A program made the translations under genes and the position numbers. Shown here piece after piece: positions 1-11,675 of a stretch of DNA of 11,675 nt (within the stretch, counting starts at the first letter, position 1; each line of letters starts with the position of its first letter). Source of the stretch: Alphaproteobacteria bacterium (GTDB lineage: Bacteria; Pseudomonadota; Alphaproteobacteria; Micavibrionales; Micavibrionaceae); contig JAUICS010000016.1 of the NCBI GenBank assembly GCA_030427765.1, forward strand, positions 1-11,675. The letters are read 5' to 3'. Below the pieces are notes generated by a model, which saw only the letters and a list, made by a program, of their open reading frames with translations, was not told where the DNA came from and did not search any database.

Positions 1-1
1 G

Positions 2-1315
2 GACGCGGTGGGCAAAACGCTGGATCGTGATAATAACCCGATACCGCTTATGCTGGATTCGGAAGACGACCGTGTTGCAATGCTAAAAGAAGAAGACACA
101 GTTGTATTAACCACCGGTCAGTATATGGAGCAAAAAAGCCGTTTCATGCAATTTGTGAATGGCGTTGGTCATAAAAAATCACACATCCGTCCACCTAGCG
201 ATCCGAAAAAAGAAGCATTGGTTGTTTTACGTGGCCCGTATCCACAAATGAAACGTGAATGGGCCAATATGTGGCGTGGTCTTAAACAAGTTTTGAAATC
301 GGGTTTTCGGGTTTATTTCCATGGGTATAGCAAGAGAACATTGAAAGAATATGAACGTCGTGGCTTGCCGCTTAAAGACCCGCATGAGGCCCTTCGTAAA
401 GAATTTCCAAAAGTTCGTTTTATGGAACTTTCGGATGGTGGTCACAATGGCCGTAACCAGATGATACGTTTCCTTTCCGAGATTCAGAAAGGCGCAACGG
501 ATGCCGGACGTCCGCCGCCGGTTCTCATTCCAATGCACACCGACGCCCGCGGTTTGAAAGCGGCGCAGGACGTTGCCGATGCCGTTGGATACACAAATGT
601 TCGTTTCACTATGCCGGGTCAAACCGTTGGGGTAAACAAAGACGGATACGTATATATTGCAAAAGGAGCACAACATAAACTGCTCGGGGCGCGTCAGGTG
701 CCACGTGACCGTGACGGTAATGTGGCAAAGGGCGGAAAAATTCTTGTTGGCTCACCATGGGTTTATGACTGGCTTGAGCCCGATTACGAGAATGGTGGGT
801 TTAAGGTTCTTGCGGAAGCCGTGACACCAGCACAGACACAGGCTTATATTGACGCAGTGAAAGCACGTGAAGGGCATAGTCCGTTTTCATACAAATCATG
901 GGTGTATATGAATCTGGAAACCGGTTTTGCGAAACCATTGGCCGAATATGCCGCGACCAGTGAGAAAGGTCCGGAACGTGTTGTAGATGCTAGTGCTATA
1001 TTCGATAATTTTGCAGAAAAAGGGTTTAGTCCGCCACCGTCACCGGACATGCCGAAAATTGATTGGGAGCATGTGAAGGAAGAAAAAGCGGCCCCTGGGC
1101 AAAAATGGAAGATGTATGTCGATAAGGATAAAGGGCAATCCATCTTTACACATAGAGGTAAGGGATTGGTTGCCGTATTCAATTATAAGAAAAGCGGTGA
1201 AACTCATATCTATAAATTACAGGCCGATGGCACGTTTAGTGAGCAAAGCGTCCTTGTGCCGCCGCCGGATGACTGGCAACCGGGTGAAGACCCATATCCG
1301 GCCTTTATGATGTAG
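2..1315 (+). CDS. RNase J-like beta-CASP protein, C-terminal part (5' truncated by window edge)
   Basis: The frame is open to the left edge, so the GTG at position 8 is probably not the true start and an N-terminal metallo-beta-lactamase domain is likely missing. Numbering from that GTG, I see features of the beta-CASP region of RNase J-type ribonucleases: VVLTTG (residues 32-37) followed by a segment resembling the family's GEP-SAL-RIA-G-H stretch, a histidine at 146 in GGHNG where RNase J has SGHA, and IPMHTD (174-179) where RNase J has PVHGE. After the last histidine come the family-like alternating pattern (LKAAQDVADAVG) and a C-terminal extension of about 220 residues that I do not recognise. 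Family members act on RNA as endo- or 5'-exonucleases using two zinc ions in the cytoplasm. The insert between residues 100 and 140 and the changed motifs make this a divergent relative, so nuclease activity is uncertain. It ends 5 nt before the next gene, suggesting an operon. Confidence 0.6.
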   Translation, partial: DAVGKTLDRDNNPIPLMLDSEDDRVAMLKEEDTVVLTTGQYMEQKSRFMQFVNGVGHKKSHIRPPSDPKKEALVVLRGPYPQMKREWANMWRGLKQVLKSGFRVYFHGYSKRTLKEYERRGLPLKDPHEALRKEFPKVRFMELSDGGHNGRNQMIRFLSEIQKGATDAGRPPPVLIPMHTDARGLKAAQDVADAVGYTNVRFTMPGQTVGVNKDGYVYIAKGAQHKLLGARQVPRDRDGNVAKGGKILVGSPWVYDWLEPDYENGGFKVLAEAVTPAQTQAYIDAVKAREGHSPFSYKSWVYMNLETGFAKPLAEYAATSEKGPERVVDASAIFDNFAEKGFSPPPSPDMPKIDWEHVKEEKAAPGQKWKMYVDKDKGQSIFTHRGKGLVAVFNYKKSGETHIYKLQADGTFSEQSVLVPPPDDWQPGEDPYPAFMM

Positions 1316-1320
1316 GCAAT

Positions 1321-1881
1321 ATGATGACTGCTGATATTCAAACGCATATTCAGAGATTGTTGCAGGGACAAGACCGCATGGACGATGCACGTGTTGAAAG
1401 TGTCGGCGTATATAATGACGGGTTCTCACATATTGAATTTATTGCGGATCATACGGAATTTTTGTTGGCTAATTGTTTTAATTTATCTGCCTCTGGCCCC
1501 TTTGCGCCGCAGCCGGGTGAGGGATGGACGATTGGGGCCGCCGATGCCAATGGCGAATTTCAGCCGTTAAAAAAATTACCGGAGCGTGAAGATGATGATC
1601 CATTGTCCGACCCGTCTGGGCCCGGCGTGATTGTATCGATTGACGGTGTTTTTAGTAAGGATGACGCCATCGCATTTGTTGATAGTCTGGTTGAAAACGT
1701 CACACCGCGACTATATGCATTTTACGGGCGTTATAATAGATTGGAAATTGGCTTTGTCATGTCGTCCGATGACCTTTCTGCGAAGCTGAAAACCGCGCGT
1801 CAGGGCACTGCTGCAAGTCATTCCGCAGGTGCCGCATATGCAGGCGGTTCGGAAGTGGTTCATTTTCGTCCGGATTTGTAG
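1321..1881 (+). CDS. hypothetical acidic protein, 186 aa
   Basis: I do not recognise this family. The start is one of two adjacent ATG codons (1321, 1324), only 5 nt after the upstream stop codon. No convincing Shine-Dalgarno sequence precedes it, so translational coupling to the RNase J-like gene is likely. The protein is rich in Asp and Glu, with no signal peptide and no membrane segment. It seems to have two halves: residues 1-80, with a hydrophobic strand-like region, and residues 95-155, starting at GPGVIVSIDGVFS and followed by alternating hydrophobic strands, which suggests a small alpha/beta fold. The last 30 residues are Ala/Gly/Ser-rich and probably flexible. No catalytic motif is visible. 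Confidence 0.7.
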   Translation: MMTADIQTHIQRLLQGQDRMDDARVESVGVYNDGFSHIEFIADHTEFLLANCFNLSASGPFAPQPGEGWTIGAADANGEFQPLKKLPEREDDDPLSDPSGPGVIVSIDGVFSKDDAIAFVDSLVENVTPRLYAFYGRYNRLEIGFVMSSDDLSAKLKTARQGTAASHSAGAAYAGGSEVVHFRPDL

Positions 1882-1898
1882 TTTTTGTCATAAGTTGC

Positions 1899-1928
1899 CT
1901 TGACATTGCATAGGTAAATCGTTAGACA
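1899..1928 (+). promoter_or_regulatory. candidate sigma-70 promoter for the 1964-2824 gene
   Basis: The sequence shows CTTGACA at 1899-1905 and TAGACA at 1923-1928, separated by 17 nt from the end of TTGACA. The -35 element matches the alphaproteobacterial CTTGAC consensus exactly; the -10 element is weak. It lies in the 82-nt gap before the next gene, so transcription would start near 1935. That would split the left cluster into two transcription units. Confidence 0.4.
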
Positions 1929-1963
1929 TAATCCAAGTAATATTGCAAAGGGGATTTGGGGAT

Positions 1964-2824
1964 ATGACACCGGAAAATACACCTGTTCTGGGTTTGGGAA
2001 CCGAGTTAATTCAGCGCGTTTGGTTTGGTGATGATACCGTCACGATCCGTATGCGTAATCATCAAAAATACGAAGATTTAATTGCCGCTGGCGCGGGACA
2101 ACAAATTGTCTTTCGTAATGATCCAAAAAAGACACAACCATCATTTCAAATCGATAGTCAGGTTAACCGAATTGAGGAAATTACCCTCGGCGATGTGCTT
2201 GGTCTGGACCCTGAGGATGTAAAAAAGGCTGGTGCCGATGCGGCCGTGGATTTATATGATTCACAATTTTACTGGTACGGGGATGAGGTCGATGACGACA
2301 CACAATTCGTACTGATTGAATATCAGGAACCGGAGATTGCGCCGACCTTGCGCGATGTCCGTACGTCGATTGGTAAAATTATGCTCTCGATCCCGGGGAT
2401 GGAGCATTTAACCGCGGATTTCCAATACTACCCATACCGTTATAATCAAGGCGTTGTTCTGGAAGTCAGTGACGATTACGCCAGTTTAAGAAAGCCGGGT
2501 GGCGGTCTCTATGATGTAGATGGCGTGGCGATTTTTGAAGGTGAGCTGTTTGACGGTGAAACATTCGGTTTCAAATTATATGGTGTCGGTGATCACATAT
2601 CACTGGAAAGCTTGAAACTATATGTAGCGCAATTCGCCGGTGATCGTTTTTACATGCACCGTCAGGATGACGGCACCATCGAAGTGTCCATTCAGGATAA
2701 GCCGGAGAATATCTTGGCACGTTTGCAGGATTTGCCTGCAAATAATGCAAGTGTCGGTTTCCAGCGCGGTATCGCATACCGCAATGATGGCGCCGGAATA
2801 CGTACATTTGATGCGGCGCCTTAA
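1964..2824 (+). CDS. hypothetical acidic protein, 286 aa
   Basis: I do not recognise this family. A TTG at 1943 opens the frame earlier, but I choose ATG 1964 because AAAGGGG lies just upstream at ribosome-binding distance and the intervening codons are themselves the purine-rich leader. The product is acidic and soluble-looking, with many predicted beta strands, for instance a segment with several Tyr residues (FQYYPYRYNQG) and a run ending ATFGFKLYG-like near residues 200-210. No signal peptide, transmembrane helix or catalytic signature is apparent. The downstream deaminase-like gene starts 12 nt after its stop and takes its Shine-Dalgarno sequence from the stop region, so the two are almost certainly co-transcribed. 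A function in partnership with the deaminase-like protein is only an inference from this spacing. Confidence 0.7.
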   Translation: MTPENTPVLGLGTELIQRVWFGDDTVTIRMRNHQKYEDLIAAGAGQQIVFRNDPKKTQPSFQIDSQVNRIEEITLGDVLGLDPEDVKKAGADAAVDLYDSQFYWYGDEVDDDTQFVLIEYQEPEIAPTLRDVRTSIGKIMLSIPGMEHLTADFQYYPYRYNQGVVLEVSDDYASLRKPGGGLYDVDGVAIFEGELFDGETFGFKLYGVGDHISLESLKLYVAQFAGDRFYMHRQDDGTIEVSIQDKPENILARLQDLPANNASVGFQRGIAYRNDGAGIRTFDAAP

Positions 2825-2836
2825 GGATATAGTGAC

Positions 2837-3628
2837 ATGTCAAACTGGCTTGGAATGAAAGATGAAGATTTTGTGGCGCGTGAGGATTTCATCGCGCGTG
2901 TTGATGCAAAACTCGCTGAACTTGGCTTTGATGATTATTCCTTAAATGACATCTTGATCTCACCGGAGCAGCTGGATAGTGAACTTGGTATTCGTGCGCC
3001 GTATGAAAAATTACGTCTGGCCTTGCTGACCACATTTGCCATGGCTGTGCGTTATGGCCGTCACCCGAAATTCAAAGTCGGTGTGTCTAATATTGATCCG
3101 CAAACCGGTGATATGATCGTTTTTGGCATTAACGGGCAAATTCCGAACTCCCGTCTAACGGAGGCGCAGGCAAATGACCGAGCCGTTCGTAGCCGTTATA
3201 CTAACCACCCCGACCGTGCATCACTAGATGCCATGGCGCGAAAGGGAATGGCAACCGAGGGCCTTATCCAGATGGGAACGTTATTCCACTGTGATGAATG
3301 CGCAACATCCCTGACCAATACCGGTGTCAAACTGGCCGTATGTGACCTGACCAAGATCGATGAATACAATATGGGATTGTTTCTTGAGGGCGAAATGGGG
3401 CCGGGCAATCAAGGCGCATCCTTTGCCCACACGGTAAAAAAATTCGCGGATGCGGGTATTCGGATTCTGGACATTCCTCTTGATAAAGACCCTGTGAAAC
3501 AGGCACTGGAGGAAGGGATTGACCTGGATGAACTTGATCGCCAAATGGGTGTATTCACAGATGGTGGAAACGACCAAACCATCCATATGTTCGCGCAGCC
3601 GTTATCGATTCCGGTTCTGGCAAAATAA
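2837..3628 (+). CDS. divergent CMP/dCMP deaminase-fold protein with HPD in place of HxE
   Basis: AAGGA at 2823-2827 gives a 9-nt spacing to this ATG. Residues 79-225 line up with the zinc-dependent cytidine/deoxycytidylate deaminase fold: KVGVSNIDPQTGDMIVFGINGQ (79-101, less the last residues) matches the family's VGAVIVDPD...GYNG substrate-loop segment, H124-P125-D126 sits where the HAE zinc/proton-shuttle motif belongs, TLFHCDEC (148-155) matches the TLFPCNEC zinc motif, and FADAGIRILDIP (203-214) matches the last strand. The zinc ligands H124, C152 and C155 are present. The catalytic Glu is replaced by Asp (codon GAC at 3212-3214) and the Pro before the first Cys is His. Residues 1-55 and 215-263 are family-unrelated extensions. 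Enzymes of this fold deaminate free nucleotides, riboflavin precursors, tRNA or DNA; the substrate here is unknown and activity may be altered or lost. It is the last gene of its operon, convergent with the HAD gene. Confidence 0.62.
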   Translation: MSNWLGMKDEDFVAREDFIARVDAKLAELGFDDYSLNDILISPEQLDSELGIRAPYEKLRLALLTTFAMAVRYGRHPKFKVGVSNIDPQTGDMIVFGINGQIPNSRLTEAQANDRAVRSRYTNHPDRASLDAMARKGMATEGLIQMGTLFHCDECATSLTNTGVKLAVCDLTKIDEYNMGLFLEGEMGPGNQGASFAHTVKKFADAGIRILDIPLDKDPVKQALEEGIDLDELDRQMGVFTDGGNDQTIHMFAQPLSIPVLAK

Positions 3629-3649
3629 TCAGAATACGTAAGCTTATAA

Positions 3650-4747
3650 TTAGTGCTGCGGCAGCGGGTGAAAATCCATTATCGCGGCACTTTCTGCTAC
3701 AACGTCAGTAAGAACGGTTGGTGCGGATGGCGGCGTAATGTGATCAAGAACATGGGCCGGATTATAAACAGGTGTAATGTTATCTGGGAATCCGTCTGAA
3801 CTTGTTTGTAAGGCCTTTTCAACCAATCCCTTGATGTAACCGTTACCGGGGCTAATACGGCGCAGGCGGGTAAAATCCTCACCCTTTGGTGTGCCATAGG
3901 CGGCGTTAAATACGTTTACGCCCTGACTGGCGGCCTTAATGCAAATATCCAGGTTGTCATCCAGAATTGCGATATTTTCTGTGCCGATGTCTTGGCCCGT
4001 GTGTTCGGTGAAATAGTCGGCAAGTATGCTGTAAATTTCGGTCGTATGTTTTGGCGCAACATTCATGTTGGCAACAACCAGATGGGGTGTGTGCTGTAAA
4101 TAACGGCGTGGTGATGCGACAATCGCAACATCATCGTTTTCATTATGTGGGTAATCTTTATCGCTACGGCTGATGACAAGATCAACTTCGCCGTGAATGA
4201 CGCCGCATGCTTCCATACGGGCCGCACCGAAATCGGCATTGGCATCTGTAAGAACGCATACAAGTACGCCATCTTCGCGTGCCCCTGCGATTAATTCGTC
4301 AACCCCTTCATATGGATCAAATCCGATGTCTTCATATGCTTTTTTAACCAGTGGCTTTACGGCTTGGTACGCGGCATCAACGGACCCCCATACCTCGGTC
4401 GCGAAGTCCGTATTCGCAATCACGTTGGCGAGGTCAAGCGGGTCGGCACGTGAACGGCGGAAGCCGTTTTCCATGTCGGGCAATAAGCTGCCGTGATAAC
4501 AAATCGTTTCAGCATCTTCTGCGTCTGCATTTACCGTGCTCGGGTCAAATGCATAACGCTCGGCATAATCCGGTGTGTTCTTAAATATCTCTGCAAAATT
4601 GTCCTGCGCGCGAAGGATGGTTGCGGCCTGAACCTGCTTATCTTTTGCAAGCTGTCTTAAAACAACTTCGACTGTGGATGTTGATATTTCGATAGACGGC
4701 AGGACAGTATTATCTATGTCCAATAAAAGTATTTTTGTCTCAGCCAT
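3650..4747 (-). CDS. HAD-superfamily hydrolase, 365 aa
   Basis: All four HAD motifs are visible: motif I D10-x-D12-x-T14 in DIDNTVL, motif II Thr167 in VLTDAN, motif III Lys233 in APKHTTE, and motif IV in ILDDNLD (D263, D264, D267). These residues form the Mg-dependent aspartyl-phosphate site of phosphatases and related phosphotransferases; D12 as general acid argues for phosphohydrolase activity. The long stretch between motifs I and II (about 150 residues) is mostly helical and fits a C1-type cap, somewhat resembling pyrimidine 5'-nucleotidase-like HADs that begin DIDNTLYP, although the substrate cannot be fixed. The protein is longer than most HADs, with a Pro-rich C-terminal tail after residue 320. 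The start has AGGGAT just upstream (minus strand). The gene is divergent from the TraA-like gene and stands alone behind its own promoter. Confidence 0.8.
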   Translation of the reverse strand: MAETKILLLDIDNTVLPSIEISTSTVEVVLRQLAKDKQVQAATILRAQDNFAEIFKNTPDYAERYAFDPSTVNADAEDAETICYHGSLLPDMENGFRRSRADPLDLANVIANTDFATEVWGSVDAAYQAVKPLVKKAYEDIGFDPYEGVDELIAGAREDGVLVCVLTDANADFGAARMEACGVIHGEVDLVISRSDKDYPHNENDDVAIVASPRRYLQHTPHLVVANMNVAPKHTTEIYSILADYFTEHTGQDIGTENIAILDDNLDICIKAASQGVNVFNAAYGTPKGEDFTRLRRISPGNGYIKGLVEKALQTSSDGFPDNITPVYNPAHVLDHITPPSAPTVLTDVVAESAAIMDFHPLPQH

Positions 4748-4801
4748 GGTATCCCTAACGCATGTTCAAATTTTTACTGTAGTATGTAAAATTAAGTTTA
4801 G

Positions 4802-4830
4802 ACATAGCCACTGCGGCAAATCGTGTCAAG
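4802..4830 (-). promoter_or_regulatory. sigma-70-type promoter for the HAD hydrolase gene
   Basis: Read on the minus strand, CTTGAC (4830-4825) is followed after exactly 17 nt by CTATGT (4807-4802). This is close to the CTTGAC-N17-CTATAT consensus described for alphaproteobacterial housekeeping promoters. Transcription would begin near 4795, giving a leader of about 50 nt before the ATG at 4747. This is the clearest promoter in the window. Confidence 0.6.
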
Positions 4831-4859
4831 ATAATATTATGATAAATAGACATCTATAG

Positions 4860-4888
4860 TTGACACACCCCATCTTCTAATTTATGAC
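4860..4888 (+). promoter_or_regulatory. candidate sigma-70 promoter for the TraA-like helicase gene
   Basis: A perfect TTGACA lies at 4860-4865, followed after 17 nt by TATGAC at 4883-4888 (four of six bases matching TATAAT). Its -35 box is 30 bp from the -35 box of the divergent HAD promoter. The expected transcript start near 4895 leaves a leader of about 100 nt before ATG 4994. The left arm of a perfect inverted repeat falls in its spacer, so a bound protein could block RNA polymerase. Confidence 0.5.
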
Positions 4889-4922
4889 AAACGTATATAA
4901 AACATATGAGGGGAAGATGGGG
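4868..4922. repeat. perfect 10-bp inverted repeat, 35-bp spacer
   Basis: CCCCATCTTC at 4868-4877 is matched exactly by its reverse complement GAAGATGGGG at 4913-4922, with 35 bp between. The left arm lies between the -35 and -10 boxes of the helicase-gene promoter and the right arm lies just after the expected transcript start. A transcript starting near 4895 contains only the right arm, so an RNA hairpin is unlikely and a two-site operator is the simplest reading. A relic of a transfer origin is possible because the downstream gene is TraA-like. Confidence 0.65.
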
Positions 4923-4993
4923 ATCTTTCGTTGCGCAAATGGCATGCGTCATGGGGAATGCCGGATCGTCACTTTCGATAGGAAATAGCCGCC

Positions 4994-7297
4994 ATGCCGA
5001 AGCAAAAATCACAATCCGTCTACATAGAAGGTGATACCCGCCTTTTGAAGGGTGTCAGCTACCAGTCATTTTTTGTCCATCCCGAAACAGGATCAATTAC
5101 GACACCCAAGAATTTTGGCAAAGACGCTGCTGATCAGGAAAAAGATGTTGATACGGTGTTTGAATTTCTAGAACGCCGTGTTGATAGCTTGTTTGCAGCG
5201 GCCGGTCCAATGGGTATTTTAACAAACGGATTTGAAGATATACCAACTGTGTCGTCTTTAAAACAACGTCTGGCGGTATGGGCACAGAAGGCGAAATCGG
5301 AACGTGGTGATACACCGGCACAGTTGATGCCGTTTGTTGAAACAATAAAATTACCGATACCAGATTTCCTGCCATCGGATCAGCAGGAAAAATTCCTACG
5401 TCATTTCATGAAAAGCGCCGGCAATGTGCCATGGGTCGCAACGGTTTCAAATATGACAGGCAAACCGGAAGCATTAATTATGATCAGCAACCGGGAAATC
5501 GGAACCGGACTACCAAATACAAGATTACGATTTTCGATGGCACCTGATTTTGCCAAATTGTCAAAACCGGCACTGCGAAACATATCGGACCTGTGGCGGA
5601 AAATTGTTAAAGAGGTCATGCCACTTGAAATGGTGACCGCGCAAAAGGCATGCTTCCACCTTGGAAATCTTGCGCCCGCCATTCGTCAGGCGTTTCAGGC
5701 CGCAGGCGAAATGGGGAACACAGACACCATTGCCGCCGAAATTATTGATATGGAAGGTAAAGGCATCATTCGCCGCTTGCTTCGCCAGAACGGTTTTCCA
5801 GCTGGCTTATATACACTCCCGTCCGTAAGGGACGAAGAGGAATATATCGTTGATCTGGCCAGTCGCATGGCAAGTGAGCGTACGCATTTTTTTGATGAAG
5901 ACATTGTAAACGACATTATTGCAACCCGCGAAACGATCATGAAAGATCAGGAGGCGGCGGTCAGATTATGTACGCAGCCAAATCGCCTTGTGGTCATCGA
6001 AGGATGGGCCGGTACGGGAAAAAGCTTTGTAACTCGTGCGCTAGAGGACGGTGCGGAAGCGCAAGGATATAACTTTTTCTATCTATCGCCAACGAATGCC
6101 GTGGCCGCCGACATGAGGAACGAAGGTATTGATGGGGCCAGTACGGCGCATAAATTGATACGCCGCCTATCCAGTGCCATGGAAAATGGCGAAACGCGTC
6201 TGGCACATGATGTAAACGACAATACCATCTTCGTGATTGATGAAGCGCAGATGATTGATAACAAGGTGCTGACAGAGTTACTGGAAATTGCGGATCGTGC
6301 GGGCGCCAAGGTTATTATGGTAGGGTCAAAAAACCAGTTGCCAAGCATATCCCGAGGCGGAATGTACAGCTACCTTGTGGATCATCCTGGTATTCCAACG
6401 GCGCATTTGCAGCAAATTTATCGTCATCGTAATGATCCTTATAAACGTGCGGCGGAATTTTTTGCGAAAGGTGAGTATCACAAGGGGCTAAAAATATTCG
6501 ATGATATGGGCTGGATTAAATGGTGTGATACACGAGCAGAGGCCAAAACATTGATGCGTGATTTGATCGCCGAGCCAAAGGACAAGGATGGTGAAGCAAT
6601 CGATTATAGCGAACGTCTTGTTCTGGCATATACAAACCGCGATGTTGCCCATTTTAATGATGAAGTGCAAAACGCACGTATCGGGGCCGGTGATATTGTA
6701 AATACGCGCGCCTATACGGTGGTTAAGGAAAAAGATGGCATTCCCGTAGAACGTAAAATTACGATTGGTGTCGCGGCGAATGAAAATGTGCAGGGAACAC
6801 GTATCTTGTTCAATAAAAACGATAAAAATCGCAAAATCATTAATGGCCAGATGGGCTTTGTTGAGGGGATATCCGAAGACGGTGAGGTATCTGTTCGTAT
6901 GGACGATGGTCGCCCGATTAATTTTTATCCTGACGAATTTCCGTATTTTGATTTGGCATACGCCACAACAATTCATAAGGGGCAAGGAATTACGTTTGAT
7001 GATACCGTTATGCTGTATTCTGGGCACTGGCGTGTGAAGGCGGCATATGTGGCATTAACACGTGCACGTGATGAAGTCGCACTGGTGGTTAGTCATGAAG
7101 ACCTGGGAATCAGTGTCGCCAAGAACGGTGCTGATGCGGTGAAGTCAAAACGTTTACGTTTACTGGCAACGCAGCTTTCTCAGCATGAGGAGGATGGCGT
7201 ATCCTTGCTTTATAATATCGAGGATGCACCGAAATCAATTACGAAAACACGTAAAACCGAAATAGAAAGGGAAGTGGCAATCGCCCTTTCCCCTTAA
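4994..7297 (+). CDS. TraA-like SF1B helicase with degenerate (HUH-less) relaxase-like N-terminus
   Basis: AGGAAA at 4980-4985 precedes this ATG by 8 nt. Helicase domain: Walker A GWAGTGKS (337-344), Walker B VIDEAQM (D416, E417), motif III GSKNQLPS (444-451), HKGQGITFD near residue 660, and YVALTRARD near the C-terminus. This is the RecD/TraA helicase set. Residues 284-311 and the Walker region follow the TraA pattern. Upstream, residues 90-210 resemble a MobA/MobL relaxase: a W-rich helix, then ETIKLP (116-121), then KPEALIMISNRE (157-168), which aligns with the NPHAHI--TTRE HUH motif but has Glu and Leu where the two metal-binding histidines should be. Nicking activity therefore seems lost while ATP-driven DNA unwinding looks retained. 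Motif III normally reads GDPxQL; the Asp is Ser445. No other transfer genes are nearby, so I infer a domesticated chromosomal helicase. Its end overlaps a hairpin. Confidence 0.75.
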   Translation: MPKQKSQSVYIEGDTRLLKGVSYQSFFVHPETGSITTPKNFGKDAADQEKDVDTVFEFLERRVDSLFAAAGPMGILTNGFEDIPTVSSLKQRLAVWAQKAKSERGDTPAQLMPFVETIKLPIPDFLPSDQQEKFLRHFMKSAGNVPWVATVSNMTGKPEALIMISNREIGTGLPNTRLRFSMAPDFAKLSKPALRNISDLWRKIVKEVMPLEMVTAQKACFHLGNLAPAIRQAFQAAGEMGNTDTIAAEIIDMEGKGIIRRLLRQNGFPAGLYTLPSVRDEEEYIVDLASRMASERTHFFDEDIVNDIIATRETIMKDQEAAVRLCTQPNRLVVIEGWAGTGKSFVTRALEDGAEAQGYNFFYLSPTNAVAADMRNEGIDGASTAHKLIRRLSSAMENGETRLAHDVNDNTIFVIDEAQMIDNKVLTELLEIADRAGAKVIMVGSKNQLPSISRGGMYSYLVDHPGIPTAHLQQIYRHRNDPYKRAAEFFAKGEYHKGLKIFDDMGWIKWCDTRAEAKTLMRDLIAEPKDKDGEAIDYSERLVLAYTNRDVAHFNDEVQNARIGAGDIVNTRAYTVVKEKDGIPVERKITIGVAANENVQGTRILFNKNDKNRKIINGQMGFVEGISEDGEVSVRMDDGRPINFYPDEFPYFDLAYATTIHKGQGITFDDTVMLYSGHWRVKAAYVALTRARDEVALVVSHEDLGISVAKNGADAVKSKRLRLLATQLSQHEEDGVSLLYNIEDAPKSITKTRKTEIEREVAIALSP
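7265..7290. terminator. hairpin between convergent genes, possible terminator
   Basis: GAAAGGG (7265-7271) pairs perfectly with CCCTTTC (7284-7290) around a 12-nt loop. It lies inside the last codons of the helicase gene, 26 nt beyond the stop codon of the minus-strand zinc-ribbon gene. On the minus strand the stem is followed by a moderately T-rich stretch (TATTTCGGTTTT); on the plus strand there is no T tract. It fits better as a weak terminator for the minus-strand gene than for the helicase gene. Confidence 0.35.
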
Positions 7298-7315
7298 AAT
7301 CATTCCGAAACAGGA

Positions 7316-7753
7316 TTAATTGTTTTTATCGTCGTCGTCTTTTTCAACGTTGATATCCAGATCGTCGTCGTCATCGGACAGATCATCGTCATCAATTGAA
7401 TCAAGGTCTTCCAGATCACCGTCAAGATCGATCTCATCGTCCAAATCTACGTCATCACCATCGTCAATGTCCTCCAGTGAGTCAACATCATCGTTATCGA
7501 CATCAAGATCAGTTTCATTCTCGTCTTTTTTGGTCTCTTTTGCTTTTGCTTCGGTCTTGCTTGTGTCGTTTTCGTTTGCTGCCGGACGCCCACGTTTACT
7601 GCGTGTCTTAACCTCTGTGCTGAATTCTGCACCGCAGTTTGGACAAACGATAGGTCGTTTGTTCATGTCGTAAAAACTGGTCGCACAACTAATACATATG
7701 CGTTTAAGCCCTCTTTTATCTAATTCTGTTTTTGCTGGTTGTGCATCTGACAT
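7316..7753 (-). CDS. TIGR02300-family zinc-ribbon protein with acidic tail
   Basis: Residues 13-44 match the TIGR02300 signature: two CxxC knuckles (C20/C23 and C37/C40) around FYDMNKRPIVCPNC, where family members typically read FYDLNK-PIVCPKC. They form a small zinc ribbon. Residues 51-57 (RSKRGRP) contain an RGRP core like an AT-hook. From about residue 79 to the end the protein is almost entirely Asp, Leu, Ile and a few Ser/Glu, a disordered acidic tail. The family is restricted mainly to Alphaproteobacteria and has no established function; a role in contact with nucleic acids or with basic proteins is an inference. The start has AAGGGAT upstream on the minus strand. It converges with the helicase gene (18 nt between stops) and diverges from the thiolase gene. 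Confidence 0.88.
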   Translation of the reverse strand: MSDAQPAKTELDKRGLKRICISCATSFYDMNKRPIVCPNCGAEFSTEVKTRSKRGRPAANENDTSKTEAKAKETKKDENETDLDVDNDDVDSLEDIDDGDDVDLDDEIDLDGDLEDLDSIDDDDLSDDDDDLDINVEKDDDDKNN

Positions 7754-7900
7754 ACTTGATCCCTTATTTGTCGATTATATTTTCTGGTTATTATCCGGAG
7801 CCATATAGCTCCACTATTTTCCAGTATTTGTCAAAACCAAATTTATAAAAAAATCATAACGCGTAATAACTTCATTTCAACAACAATCTGTAATATATTT

Positions 7901-7920
7901 AGGTGTAGTAAAATATACCT
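7901..7920. promoter_or_regulatory. imperfect palindrome upstream of the thiolase gene, possible operator
   Basis: AGGTGTAGTA and AAATATACCT form an imperfect dyad in which 7 of 10 positions pair. It lies about 40 nt before the thiolase start, downstream of the AT-rich part of a 208-nt divergent intergenic region (7754-7961). Beta-oxidation genes are often controlled by TetR- or GntR-type repressors that bind such dyads. I could not place a convincing -35/-10 pair for the thiolase gene, and the dyad could be chance in AT-rich sequence. Confidence 0.2.
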
Positions 7921-7961
7921 GCCCAAAAGATTAATCCACTAACGTCTCCCAGGAACTGATC

Positions 7962-9083
7962 ATGCATAAGAAAGTTGTTATTTGCGGTTTTAAACGCTCC
8001 CCGTTTCATTTTGCGACGAAAGGGTCGCTCGCGGGGGTTCGTCCTGATGACATGGCTGCCATGGTGGTTAAGGATCTCGTGAAAGATTTGAACGCGACGG
8101 ATATTGAAGATTTACTTCTTGGCTGTGCCTTTCCAGAGGCGGAGCAAGGATTTAATATTGCCCGTAACGTTGTGTTTATTGCCGGCTTACCGGTCAGTAT
8201 TGCCGGGGCAACTCTAAACCGTTTTTGTGCATCTTCTATGACAACAATCCATATGGCCGCCGGATATATCCAGATGGGCGCGGGTGAAGTGTTTATTGCG
8301 GGCGGCGTTGAATCGATGACACGCATACCGATGGGCGGTTATAACCCGATGCCAAACCATAATTTAAGGGAATCGTACCCGCACGCATATATTTCGATGG
8401 GGACCACGGCAGAAAATCTGGCGAAGAAATATGACGTAAGTCGGGATGAGCAGGATGAATTTGCTCTGAATTCACATCAGAAGGCCGCTGCGGCACGCGA
8501 AAACGGTAAATTTTCGGACGAAATTGTCTCAATTGACGGTGTTACGGCAGACGGATGTATTCGGGCAGAATCAACGATTGAATCACTGGCTGGTTTAAAA
8601 CCGGCGTTTGATAAGGATGGTTCGGTCACTGCCGGAACCTCATCACCGTTGACGGATGGTGCCGCCGCCGTGATCGTGGCCAGTGAAGAGTATGCAAAAA
8701 CCCATAATTTGCCGGTTTTGGCATCAATTCGATCCGTTGCCGTGTCCGGGTGTGATGCGGATGTTATGGGTATAGGACCTGTGAATGCTACGAAAAAGGC
8801 ACTGGAGCGCGCGGGTCTGGCAATTGATGACATTGATATAGTTGAACTGAATGAAGCGTTCGCCGCGCAGGCGTTGTCGGTCGTTAAGGACCTTGAAATA
8901 CCGCAGGATAAACTGAACTTGGATGGCGGCGCCATTGCACTGGGTCACCCGCTGGGGGCCAGCGGCGCCCGTATATCAGGAAAAGCGGCCTCATTGCTGA
9001 ACCGCGAAGGTAAATCACTAGCGCTGGCCACAATGTGCGTCGGCGGTGGGCAGGGCGCGGAAATAATTTTAGAAAAAGAATAA
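7962..9083 (+). CDS. acetyl-CoA C-acyltransferase (thiolase)
   Basis: This enzyme cleaves 3-ketoacyl-CoA with CoA to give acetyl-CoA and a shortened acyl-CoA, the last step of beta-oxidation; the same fold also serves in acetoacetyl-CoA synthesis. All thiolase active-site motifs are present: nucleophile C89 in NRFCASS, NEAF (297-300), H329 in GHPLGASGAR, and C359 in CVGGGQGAE. At 373 residues it is slightly short for the family (about 390-400), with the loop after residue 190 looking compact. It is cytoplasmic, with no signal peptide, and probably a tetramer. AGGA at 7951-7954 precedes the ATG. The nearby hydroxyacyl-CoA dehydrogenase points to the degradative FadA-type role rather than to polyhydroxybutyrate synthesis, although sequence alone does not exclude the latter. 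Confidence 0.93.
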   Translation: MHKKVVICGFKRSPFHFATKGSLAGVRPDDMAAMVVKDLVKDLNATDIEDLLLGCAFPEAEQGFNIARNVVFIAGLPVSIAGATLNRFCASSMTTIHMAAGYIQMGAGEVFIAGGVESMTRIPMGGYNPMPNHNLRESYPHAYISMGTTAENLAKKYDVSRDEQDEFALNSHQKAAAARENGKFSDEIVSIDGVTADGCIRAESTIESLAGLKPAFDKDGSVTAGTSSPLTDGAAAVIVASEEYAKTHNLPVLASIRSVAVSGCDADVMGIGPVNATKKALERAGLAIDDIDIVELNEAFAAQALSVVKDLEIPQDKLNLDGGAIALGHPLGASGARISGKAASLLNREGKSLALATMCVGGGQGAEIILEKE

Positions 9084-9174
9084 TTTCTATTTTGAAAATA
9101 TGTGTAAAAACAATACGATAATATTAGGGTTTAGTGCCTGATTAATACATTGTAAGGTTAATATTAATAAATTT

Positions 9175-9203
9175 ATGACATTTTAGATAAATTAGGCATT
9201 AAT
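9175..9203 (+). promoter_or_regulatory. candidate promoter giving a near-leaderless mRNA for the 9217 gene
   Basis: ATGACA (9175-9180) and ATTAAT (9198-9203) are separated by 17 nt in a very AT-rich 133-nt intergenic region (9084-9216), which also contains the palindrome TTAATATTAA at 9158-9167. A start about 7 nt after the -10 box falls near 9210, only a few bases before ATG 9217. This agrees with the absence of any Shine-Dalgarno sequence there. AT-rich sequence makes chance matches likely. Confidence 0.3.
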
Positions 9204-9216
9204 TTGCATTGATAGT

Positions 9217-10458
9217 ATGAGCGATAACTTTTTTAAAGTACTGAGTATTGAAGAAAATACGGAGCTTGACCGCACGGAGGCGAAGCTGCGCGAGAATATT
9301 CAGGACTGTATTTACCCGAAAAAACCCGAAGATAAAAATCTTCCGCTAAATAAAGAAATCGAAAAACTGAATGATTTTATGAGTAAGTTTTTTGATTACT
9401 CGCGGGACTGGCTGCGTGGCCATTATGTGATCGGGAAATCCGACGGCTCGACCGCACACGCCGAAGAATTGAAGGTCAAGGGCGCAAAGCTTCTGCAAAG
9501 TTTACAGGATGAATTAACGCAGTTTGTTATTAATTATTTGAAGCTGGAACGTTTTATTGCACTCGTTCGCGAACAAATCAAAAAACGTGAAGATAAAGAC
9601 CGTCACAGCATTGATGTTGAATGGACGGACAGTATCGCCGTATTTGTGGAGCGTTACCGTAAGACATTTGCCCAAATCATCGATATTATTGATGACCATA
9701 AAAAAGCCTATGATTTGCTGAAAGAACGCGATGATCAGGATATCGGTATGGAGCGTTTTGAATCCCGCGTGAAAGATATTCTGGGATTTAAAAAGGCACA
9801 GCCTCTCATAAGAGCGTTGTTTTCCGAATTACGCGGTTGCGAGTTTTCGAAGGCAAGGCAGACCCTGAAACAGATCGAGGAACAGGGCGGAATGTTCTCA
9901 CAAGGAAAAATGAAAGAAGCCATGAACCTTGGAAACGATTTGATTGAATTTTATGACTCGAAAGAGGCATTTTTACGAAACCGCGAGAATGACCGTTTGT
10001 TTTTACGTTATAAAGAGATCAAGCTTTTGTACGAAACGCAGAAAATGGACCTTGATAAGGCATATAAATACATCCGTAAGTACCATATGCCGTATCTACG
10101 CTATAAGCTTGAATCACTCATCAGGGTGAAAAAGCAAGTCATGTTAATCGGGTCTTATGAGCAGTTATTGACCCTTCATCGTAAGCTTTTAAAAGGACTT
10201 TCCAGTAAACTGGTTAAGATTGAGCACGAACGTATATTTGAGAACGAGGTTGTTACACCGATCGATTATCTGTTGAAACAACAGTTTTCAGAAGGCCCGA
10301 AATTGATTGAAAAAGCCGAAGCTATCGTCCGTGAATTCTTGAAAGCTCTTGAAGAATCACGGTTCCTTGATGAACGTGATTTATCACGTCATGCCATCAT
10401 TATGGATGCTGATGATAATGAGGGTGAGCCAGACCCCGAAAAAACTGCAGAAGCATAA
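9217..10458 (+). CDS. hypothetical helical / coiled-coil protein, 413 aa
   Basis: I do not recognise this family. The product is highly charged (Lys, Glu, Arg, Asp), with almost no Gly or Pro across residues 45-390, so it should be nearly all alpha-helical with long amphipathic or coiled-coil segments, for example around 85-125, 140-172, 195-222 and 310-380. There is no signal peptide or membrane helix, and no catalytic motif; the last 17 residues form a short acidic tail (DADDNEGEPDPEK). Such proteins usually act as scaffolds or structural or cytoskeletal partners, which remains an inference. No Shine-Dalgarno sequence precedes the ATG. It lies between two fatty-acid oxidation genes on the same strand, 133 nt after the thiolase and 74 nt before the dehydrogenase, so it may be a neighbour rather than a pathway member. 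Confidence 0.75.
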   Translation: MSDNFFKVLSIEENTELDRTEAKLRENIQDCIYPKKPEDKNLPLNKEIEKLNDFMSKFFDYSRDWLRGHYVIGKSDGSTAHAEELKVKGAKLLQSLQDELTQFVINYLKLERFIALVREQIKKREDKDRHSIDVEWTDSIAVFVERYRKTFAQIIDIIDDHKKAYDLLKERDDQDIGMERFESRVKDILGFKKAQPLIRALFSELRGCEFSKARQTLKQIEEQGGMFSQGKMKEAMNLGNDLIEFYDSKEAFLRNRENDRLFLRYKEIKLLYETQKMDLDKAYKYIRKYHMPYLRYKLESLIRVKKQVMLIGSYEQLLTLHRKLLKGLSSKLVKIEHERIFENEVVTPIDYLLKQQFSEGPKLIEKAEAIVREFLKALEESRFLDERDLSRHAIIMDADDNEGEPDPEKTAEA

Positions 10459-10504
10459 TTTCGTCCGCGCGGCGTAATGAGGGGTTTCCATTCCACTGAT
10501 TTCC

Positions 10505-10525
10505 TTTACATTTAAGGGGTGTAAA
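10505..10525 (+). promoter_or_regulatory. small hairpin presenting the Shine-Dalgarno sequence of the dehydrogenase gene
   Basis: TTTACA (10505-10510) can pair with TGTAAA (10520-10525) around a 9-nt loop that contains AAGGGG (10514-10519), the only good ribosome-binding sequence before the next gene. It sits 13 nt before ATG 10533, longer than ideal. The stem is short and A/T-rich, so its stability is doubtful. Confidence 0.3.
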
Positions 10526-10532
10526 TAAGTGA

Positions 10533-11675
10533 ATGGATTCTGTTATGTCTTTCAAAAAAATTGGTGTTATCGGTGCGGGTCTTATGGGTTCCGGTATTGC
10601 GGCCCAGATTGCAAATGCCGGGATTGACGTTGTTCTTCTTGATATAGTTCCGAAAGATGCGGATGATCGCAGCATGCTCGCCAAAGGCGCCGTTGATAAG
10701 ATGTTGAAGGCAAAACCGTCTGCATTTATGCATAAACGCAATGCACGGCATATCACACCCGGAAATATGGAAGATGATATTGATTTGCTGAAGGACTGTG
10801 ACTGGATTGTCGAGGTCGTTCTGGAGGACCTTGAAGTCAAACACGCTACATACGAAAAAATTGCCAATGTTCGTAAAGACGGCGCGATTGTATCCTCGAA
10901 TACATCGACCATCCCGCTTGAAAAATTGATTGAGGGACAATCACCGGATTTTCAGGAACACTTCCTGATCACCCATTTCTTTAACCCGCCACGTTTTATG
11001 CGCCTTCTGGAAATTGTTGTTGGTGATAAAACAAAACCGGACATTGTTAAACGGGTTGAAGCATTTTGCGACATTAACCTCGGTAAAACGGTTGTGTATT
11101 GTCACGATACGCCCGGTTTCATCGCAAACCGTCTGGCTATTTACTGGATGCAGGTGGCGATCAATGAATTGATTGCGCAGGGCATAACAATCGAGGTTGC
11201 GGATGCTGTTATGTCGAAACCGGTTGGTATTCCAAAAACCGGTGTCTTCGGTTTGATTGATTTAATTGGCGTGGATTTGATTCCCCATCTTGCGAAATCA
11301 ATGCTGGCGACCCTGCCCGAAAATGATAAATACCGTAATGAATTCAATGATTACGGGTTTCTCCACCAAATGATCGATGCGGGTTATAAGGGACGTAAAG
11401 GGAAAGGCGGATTTTTCCGTATGGACCCTGAGGCAATCAAAGGCGGTAAAAAAGTTAAACAGGCCTTACGCATTAATCCGGATAAATTTGAGGAAAACCA
11501 TTATGTAACAGCCGAAAAACCAAAGCTGGAGTCCGTGGTTGCCGGCAAGGCTGGTCTGAAGGCCGTTGTGACAACGGATGATGAAGGCGGGCGTTACGCG
11601 TGGGCCGTTTTGAAAAAAGTGCTGGCGTACATGGCTGCGCTTGTGCCGGATATTGCCGATGATATTTATTCGGTG
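10533..11675 (+). CDS. FadN-like 3-hydroxyacyl-CoA dehydrogenase, 5' part (cut by window end)
   Basis: The frame stays open to the last base, so the 3' part is outside the window. Two in-frame starts exist, ATG 10533 and ATG 10545; I give 10533 as closer to AAGGGG (10514-10519), but 10545 is equally possible and the residue numbers here count from it. An N-terminal Rossmann fold with GAGLMGSG (10-17) binds NAD; the catalytic region has SSNTST (117-122), H144 in HFFNPP, E156 in LLEIV and GFIANR (191-196), and the C-terminal dimerisation helices start near FGLIDLIG. The enzyme oxidises L-3-hydroxyacyl-CoA to 3-ketoacyl-CoA, feeding the thiolase encoded upstream. The sequence continues past the usual ~290 residues with a GRKGKGGFF segment and a further dehydrogenase-like repeat, which matches large FadN-type proteins that add an enoyl-CoA hydratase domain; that domain is not visible here. 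Confidence 0.9.
   Translation, partial: MDSVMSFKKIGVIGAGLMGSGIAAQIANAGIDVVLLDIVPKDADDRSMLAKGAVDKMLKAKPSAFMHKRNARHITPGNMEDDIDLLKDCDWIVEVVLEDLEVKHATYEKIANVRKDGAIVSSNTSTIPLEKLIEGQSPDFQEHFLITHFFNPPRFMRLLEIVVGDKTKPDIVKRVEAFCDINLGKTVVYCHDTPGFIANRLAIYWMQVAINELIAQGITIEVADAVMSKPVGIPKTGVFGLIDLIGVDLIPHLAKSMLATLPENDKYRNEFNDYGFLHQMIDAGYKGRKGKGGFFRMDPEAIKGGKKVKQALRINPDKFEENHYVTAEKPKLESVVAGKAGLKAVVTTDDEGGRYAWAVLKKVLAYMAALVPDIADDIYSV

Follow-up and report, generated by a model that had tools for sequence, protein, structure and literature searches.

Can a conjugation protein outlive the loss of its nicking site? This question is raised by a gene in an 11,675-nucleotide stretch of DNA (hereafter, the window; contig JAUICS010000016.1, positions 1 to 11,675, assembly GCA_030427765.1) from an alphaproteobacterium of the family Micavibrionaceae. 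The gene (4994..7297, + strand) encodes a 767-aa protein annotated here as a TraA-lineage helicase with a degenerate MobA/MobL (relaxase) N-terminus. As judged from sequence comparisons, the predicted helicase belongs to the TraA clade, the putative relaxase remnant lacks the metal-binding histidines, and the reading frame is intact. We suggest that the protein probably descends from a MOBQ relaxase with an attached helicase (TraA) and can no longer nick DNA. The source genome (1.99 Mb, 77.5% complete) consists of 429 contigs, and the window is contig 299.

Residues 211–705 (5624..7108, + strand) make up a TraI/RecD2-like SF1B helicase together with the helical subdomain at its N-terminus. Walker A (GWAGTGKS, residues 337–344, 6002..6025, + strand) and Walker B (DEA, residues 416–418, 6239..6247, + strand) are both kept, as had been noticed in an earlier reading of this DNA made from the sequence alone (the sequence-only reading). 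According to the tree, the helicase half falls among the MOBQ relaxases that carry a helicase (TraA), in a clade with support of 100/99, on a long branch (1.8), and stands apart from the side of the RecD2-type SF1B helicases (support 99/98). A MOBQ cluster with a C-terminal helicase is described in passages of PMC12857230. The TIGR02768 model scored 246 bits over residues 273–705 only; this is below the curated cut-off of 590, so the protein does not reach equivalog level. Pfam, NCBIfam, PHROGs and PADLOC scans of the protein gave helicase matches only. In an alignment with 23 other rows, we considered columns with at least 15 letters that were at least 95% conserved among those rows. Of these strongly conserved TraA columns, 58/73 were kept in the helicase part, including GxAGTGKS, DEA, Q448 and R690, and the SF1B motifs were thereby recognised. 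For the relaxase part the count was 2/17, which is rough because two rows have no relaxase, three have a MobP-type one and the query is aligned with little certainty at its N-terminus.

The N-terminal region is collinear with the MobA/MobL relaxase domain over residues 71–205 (5204..5608, + strand) and contains ETIKLP (residues 116–121, 5339..5356, + strand), the counterpart of the relaxase LALP strand. The sequence-only reading had pointed to this motif and to a second segment, KPEALIMISNRE, which lies at residues 157–168; the open reading frame (ORF), its frame and the residue numbers that it gave are correct. Curated models did not recognise the region: residues 1–225 matched no Pfam (PF03389 included, E ≤ 1) or NCBIfam model, and a PDB sequence search with residues 1–265 found no match, the best two E values being 1.6 and 2.1. 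A purpose-built MobA/MobL profile was assembled from 67 domains, 20 of them from database homologues and the other 47 being those among 55 locus hits that matched from the domain start. Comparison of residues 1–205 with this profile by hhalign gave a score of 33.3 (E 2e-4 for one comparison, probability 47%), and the matched part was residues 117–205 (5342..5608, + strand). By this comparison, the relaxase resemblance that the sequence-only reading had proposed is borne out for this part. Shuffled sequences scored 12.8 on average and 24.6 at most, with 0/300 reaching the query score. The query ranked first among 705 segments, itself included, and TrwC or MobP relaxase segments took several of the places just below it. 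The 704 decoys were segments taken from helicase proteins, from proteins of the window and from ORFs in all six frames of the fetched loci, from which MobA/MobL regions and P0032 had been excluded beforehand. With a TrwC profile (13 rows) the query score was matched by 5/100 shuffles and with a MobP profile (4 rows) by 42/100; these profiles are shallower than the MobA/MobL one, so that the specificity test is modest.

Our own profile Smith–Waterman comparison gave a score of 73.9 with soft gaps, reached by none of 1000 shuffles and 7/525 natural segments, and of 46.3 with standard gaps, reached by 1/1000 shuffles and 23/525 natural segments; both 525-segment counts hold two MobA/MobL pieces that belonged outside the decoy set. 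After correction for composition, the query ranked 1/499 (soft gaps, z 6.6) and 5/499 (standard gaps, z 4.6), and the chance level in the same test is illustrated by a segment of the window thiolase with z of 5.1 and 5.8. It should be noted that the relaxase match runs collinearly up to the expected junction with the helicase and retains the W of the LWR segment, and that about 50 residues or more are missing between this segment and the helicase. Based on these profile comparisons, residues 117–205 are a putative, strongly diverged MobA/MobL remnant, whose common ancestry is indicated by hhalign and not by HMMER in local mode. An intact relaxase in another frame was considered and rejected, as HMMER relaxase profiles gave noise for residues 1–240 and the six frames of the window. 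Two HxH strings occur between positions 4700 and 5900, at 4803 and 5719, both of them in other frames and with no relaxase context.

The counterpart of relaxase motif III is KPEALIMISNRE (residues 157–168, 5462..5497, + strand). Here the second histidine of the HUH motif is replaced by Glu159 (5468–5470, + strand) and the third by Leu161 (5474–5476, + strand). This replacement had been proposed from the sequence alone, and its register agrees with both the profile alignment and the alignment to R1162 MobA (PDB 2ns6), in which H120 faces E159 and H122 faces L161. R1162 MobA has histidines at 112, 120 and 122, and the query has none there; the pairwise similarity is weak, with 45/2000 shuffles scoring as high. 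The pairwise alignment with NES (PDB 4ht4) falls in a different register and is not significant (318/2000 shuffles as high). The first HUH position corresponds to Ser152 in the pairwise alignment or to Val151 in the profile alignment. The N-terminal region contains only His29 and His137 and none in residues 138–210; therefore, no metal triad is possible, and the three metal-binding histidines of motif III are missing from the query. The only tyrosines in residues 1–210 are Tyr10 and Tyr23. The hhalign match excludes residues 1–116, so that the motif I region is not confidently aligned, and the loss of the catalytic tyrosine is likely as far as the sequence indicates. Of the 67 profile domains, 66 have this tyrosine, and 67, 66 and 66 have the first, second and third histidine, respectively, the exception being one domain (L038_1) discussed below.

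Compared with Ti-type TraA (TIGR02768, PF03389), the query shares the helicase half, the N-terminal helical subdomain and the domain order, with residual collinearity over residues 71–205. It differs in the lost metal-binding histidines, the residues missing before the helicase, a shorter C-terminal region and the lack of transfer genes found. We suggest the following mode of action. The helicase would load on single-stranded DNA and move 5′ to 3′ with ATP, and the role of the former relaxase domain may go no further than binding single strands or docking, as a passive module. We liken this docking module to the vestigial helicase domain of F TraI, which is kept as a DNA-binding domain and is stated to bind single-stranded DNA in sections of PMC5422253. 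In F/R1 TraI (MOBF), it is a helicase copy that is dead and the relaxase that is active, and the query shows the reverse. The substrate could be the host chromosome in single-stranded form, or single strands from a passing element cut by another nickase. Passages of PMC9905601 present the archaeal Ced system as a case in which conjugation parts were adopted for chromosomal use. The sequence-only reading took the gene for a former conjugation protein, and in this the TraA lineage, the vanished metal site, the retention of most helicase motifs and the position beside a chromosomal block agree with it; the DNA-binding scaffold and the chromosomal task that it added are parts that we only infer. 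If our reading is true, survival of a TraA-lineage helicase without nicking would open a route for transfer machinery into other DNA work. Such proteins would escape relaxase-based searches, as in this case, where Pfam misses the relaxase part. Conjugation proteins are usually recognised via their relaxase domain.

To assess whether the protein represents a conserved family of relaxase-dead TraA proteins, as had been supposed from the sequence alone, relatives were sought at several levels, and the supposition failed. No full-length homologue was seen in the protein database, where the best coverage was 69% among the 7998 candidates sharing most words, and exact-peptide scans of genome and viral contigs found none either. 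Within the order, 5/142 genomes matched (its own included); in the four others the match covered parts of the helicase side, so that the full-length protein is the sole copy among the 142. One of these four, in a genome of the same family (G100), starts where its contig does, within the relaxase domain, and its active site is not visible. A sample of the class comprised 385 genomes, 71 of which matched (its own included), and the best other match had 38% identity over residues 273–702. Among the 5000 records listed in a whole-protein plasmid search, one covered more than 80% of the query, namely an Agrobacterium MobF relaxase (22.8% identity, E 3e-13, residues 121–766). A relaxase-less TraA helicase with 38% identity (L042) was examined as a second case and rejected, as its match has no counterpart of the N-terminus. 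This protein is encoded by a 561-aa ORF (genome G457, contig 11), whose flanks resemble, by eye only, a tyrosine recombinase and a coupling-type ATPase. Among the open-licence PubMed Central papers listed in literature searches, none was seen to describe a relaxase-dead TraA. At present, the protein is a single sequence without close relatives, and hence a lead, not a family.

Several results weigh against descent from TraA with a relaxase remnant. When six known MobA/MobL domains were left out of the profile singly, they scored 208–340, and the query with 33 therefore lies far outside normal family divergence. HMMER in local mode gave 1.2 bits, exceeded by 20/2000 shuffles. When residues 1–270 were searched against 5.8 billion clustered proteins, the query alone was found at E ≤ 10 among the 2307 candidates sharing exact words, and tblastn with residues 1–265 at E up to 10 gave six plasmid records and one phage record, the best E values being 0.5 and 9, respectively. 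Structure prediction of residues 1–217 alone gave a low-confidence model (pLDDT 35.6). In the full model, the helicase was mainly resolved and residues 1–93 had a pLDDT below 50. This model also showed a strand-helix-strand-strand at 114–165, which is not independent evidence because its alignment held relaxase rows. Fold searches were filled by the helicase and thus make no statement on the N-terminal fold; 2ns6 and 4ht4 were not among the 50 best fold matches listed, which excludes nothing. As for the helicase, 15/73 strongly conserved columns are altered, including D445S (motif III) and Q478H, and together with the branch length of 1.8 this means that helicase activity is not assured. The codon-usage signal of the N-terminal part in frame is weak (0.087 ± 0.051, compared with 0.132 ± 0.032 for the helicase part and −0.158 to 0.055 for the five other frames), and the N-terminal frame may be open just because translation of the helicase passes through it. 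PF03389 (MobA/MobL), coupling-protein PF02534 and VirB4 PF03135 had no match in the source genome, and neither a coupling protein nor VirB4 was found among the window ORFs scanned; being drawn from a genome of such completeness and fragmentation, these missing transfer genes are weak evidence and count little.

The gene lies in a 771-codon open frame, so the start of the 767-aa gene is well bounded. Downstream and convergent is a gene for a FYDLN_acid (TIGR02300) protein (7316..7753, − strand), a conserved chromosomal marker, beyond which lie genes for a thiolase, for a protein of 413 aa and for a 3-hydroxyacyl-CoA dehydrogenase. Related regions of 16–18.5 kb each were fetched from 8 of the 16 other genomes holding the 413-aa neighbour. 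The FYDLN, thiolase and 413-aa genes occur together in 8/8 of them and the dehydrogenase in 6/8, and in 3 of the 4 that were scanned a PrmA methyltransferase occupies the place beside FYDLN. The TraA-like gene, the HAD-like hydrolase gene next to it (divergent; 3650..4747, − strand), a deaminase-like gene and ORFs 1–3 had no match in any of the eight. Since the FYDLN block is kept across the regions and the TraA-like gene has no counterpart there, this gene is most likely chromosomal and sits within a lineage-specific stretch.

A first alternative is that the gene is what is left of a mobilisable element that had integrated and is now decaying, with the relaxase having lost constraint first, the helicase following and no service being rendered to the host. 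We consider this a possible, though doubtful, alternative. It is in line with the adjoining ORFs lacking counterparts in the eight regions, the deaminase-like neighbour being unmatched in the 57 other genomes searched, the single full-length copy in the order, the weak N-terminal coding signal and the altered helicase columns. Decay is harder to reconcile with a 767-codon frame that remains intact despite very large divergence, the first 205 codons being open in only 1/200,000 base shuffles, and with the retention of both Walker motifs and the majority of the helicase motifs. Furthermore, the window has no tRNA, and its scanned ORFs include no integrase or other transfer gene.

A second alternative is a domain swap, in which an unrelated N-terminus was placed before a TraA helicase and the HUH-like match arose by chance or by convergence on a strand-helix-strand-strand. 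There is a precedent in the clade: three proteins of the same TraA helicase lineage (P0002–P0004) carry a MobP-type (PF03432) domain replacing MobA/MobL, which indicates that relaxase domains have been exchanged on the TraA helicase. The N-terminus without Pfam, NCBIfam or PDB sequence matches and the natural segments reaching its raw profile scores also fit a swap. Against this, the hhalign rank and shuffle control, the better fit to the MobA/MobL profile than to the TrwC and MobP profiles, and the collinear match leading into the helicase with the LWR tryptophan kept make a swap improbable. That the relaxase is still active and uses an unusual metal site, as in the HEN relaxases (MbeA of ColE1, motif III His-Glu-Asn), is scarcely credible: Glu159 does occupy the second-His position, and the HEN relaxases, which exist in the MOBP family, show that motif III can vary (passages of PMC12857230), but HEN has one His and an Asn, the third position of the query is Leu, no His occurs in 138–210 and Tyr10 and Tyr23 are the sole tyrosines of residues 1–210.

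Besides the TraA descendant that we favour, a different nicking-dead protein was found in another family of the same order. It is a 234-aa MobA/MobL protein (L038:741–1442; genome G056, contig 33:45186–45887) with a PF03389 score of 136 bits, in which Tyr is changed to Arg and HxH to YxI; this is the exception among the 67 profile domains mentioned above. Its ORF is followed, with the ATG four bases beyond its end, by that of a MobA/MobL relaxase (L038:1450–2949) that has Tyr and three His. In the database, a homologue (P0060) shares 85% identity with it along the entire length, and the Arg/His/Tyr/Ile set recurs there. Among the best 120 of 205 homologues (query included), 113 had Tyr and three His, two were this dead pair, and the remaining five showed gaps or one change, possibly alignment or fragment effects. 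Judging by these residues, a MobA/MobL protein predicted to be unable to nick has persisted in two sequences or more, which are distinct from the window protein. It is tempting, and for now speculative, to regard nicking-dead MobA/MobL domains as a retained, useful class in the order that arose more than once, in helicase-fused and stand-alone 234-aa forms. Instead of working as enzymes, they may bind oriT or single strands, or may partner or silence active relaxases. The stand-alone dead paralogue beside an intact relaxase offers the better handle for a direct test.

As to the rest of the window, positions 8–4747 hold ORFs of 435, 186, 293, 263 (deaminase-like) and 365 aa (HAD-like), which form a lineage-specific stretch; the first three had no Pfam, NCBIfam, PHROG or PADLOC match. 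The 413-aa protein (9217–10455) has no Pfam family and matches in 16/57 other genomes at 22–31% identity, and its position beside genes of the beta-oxidation type is kept in the eight regions examined.
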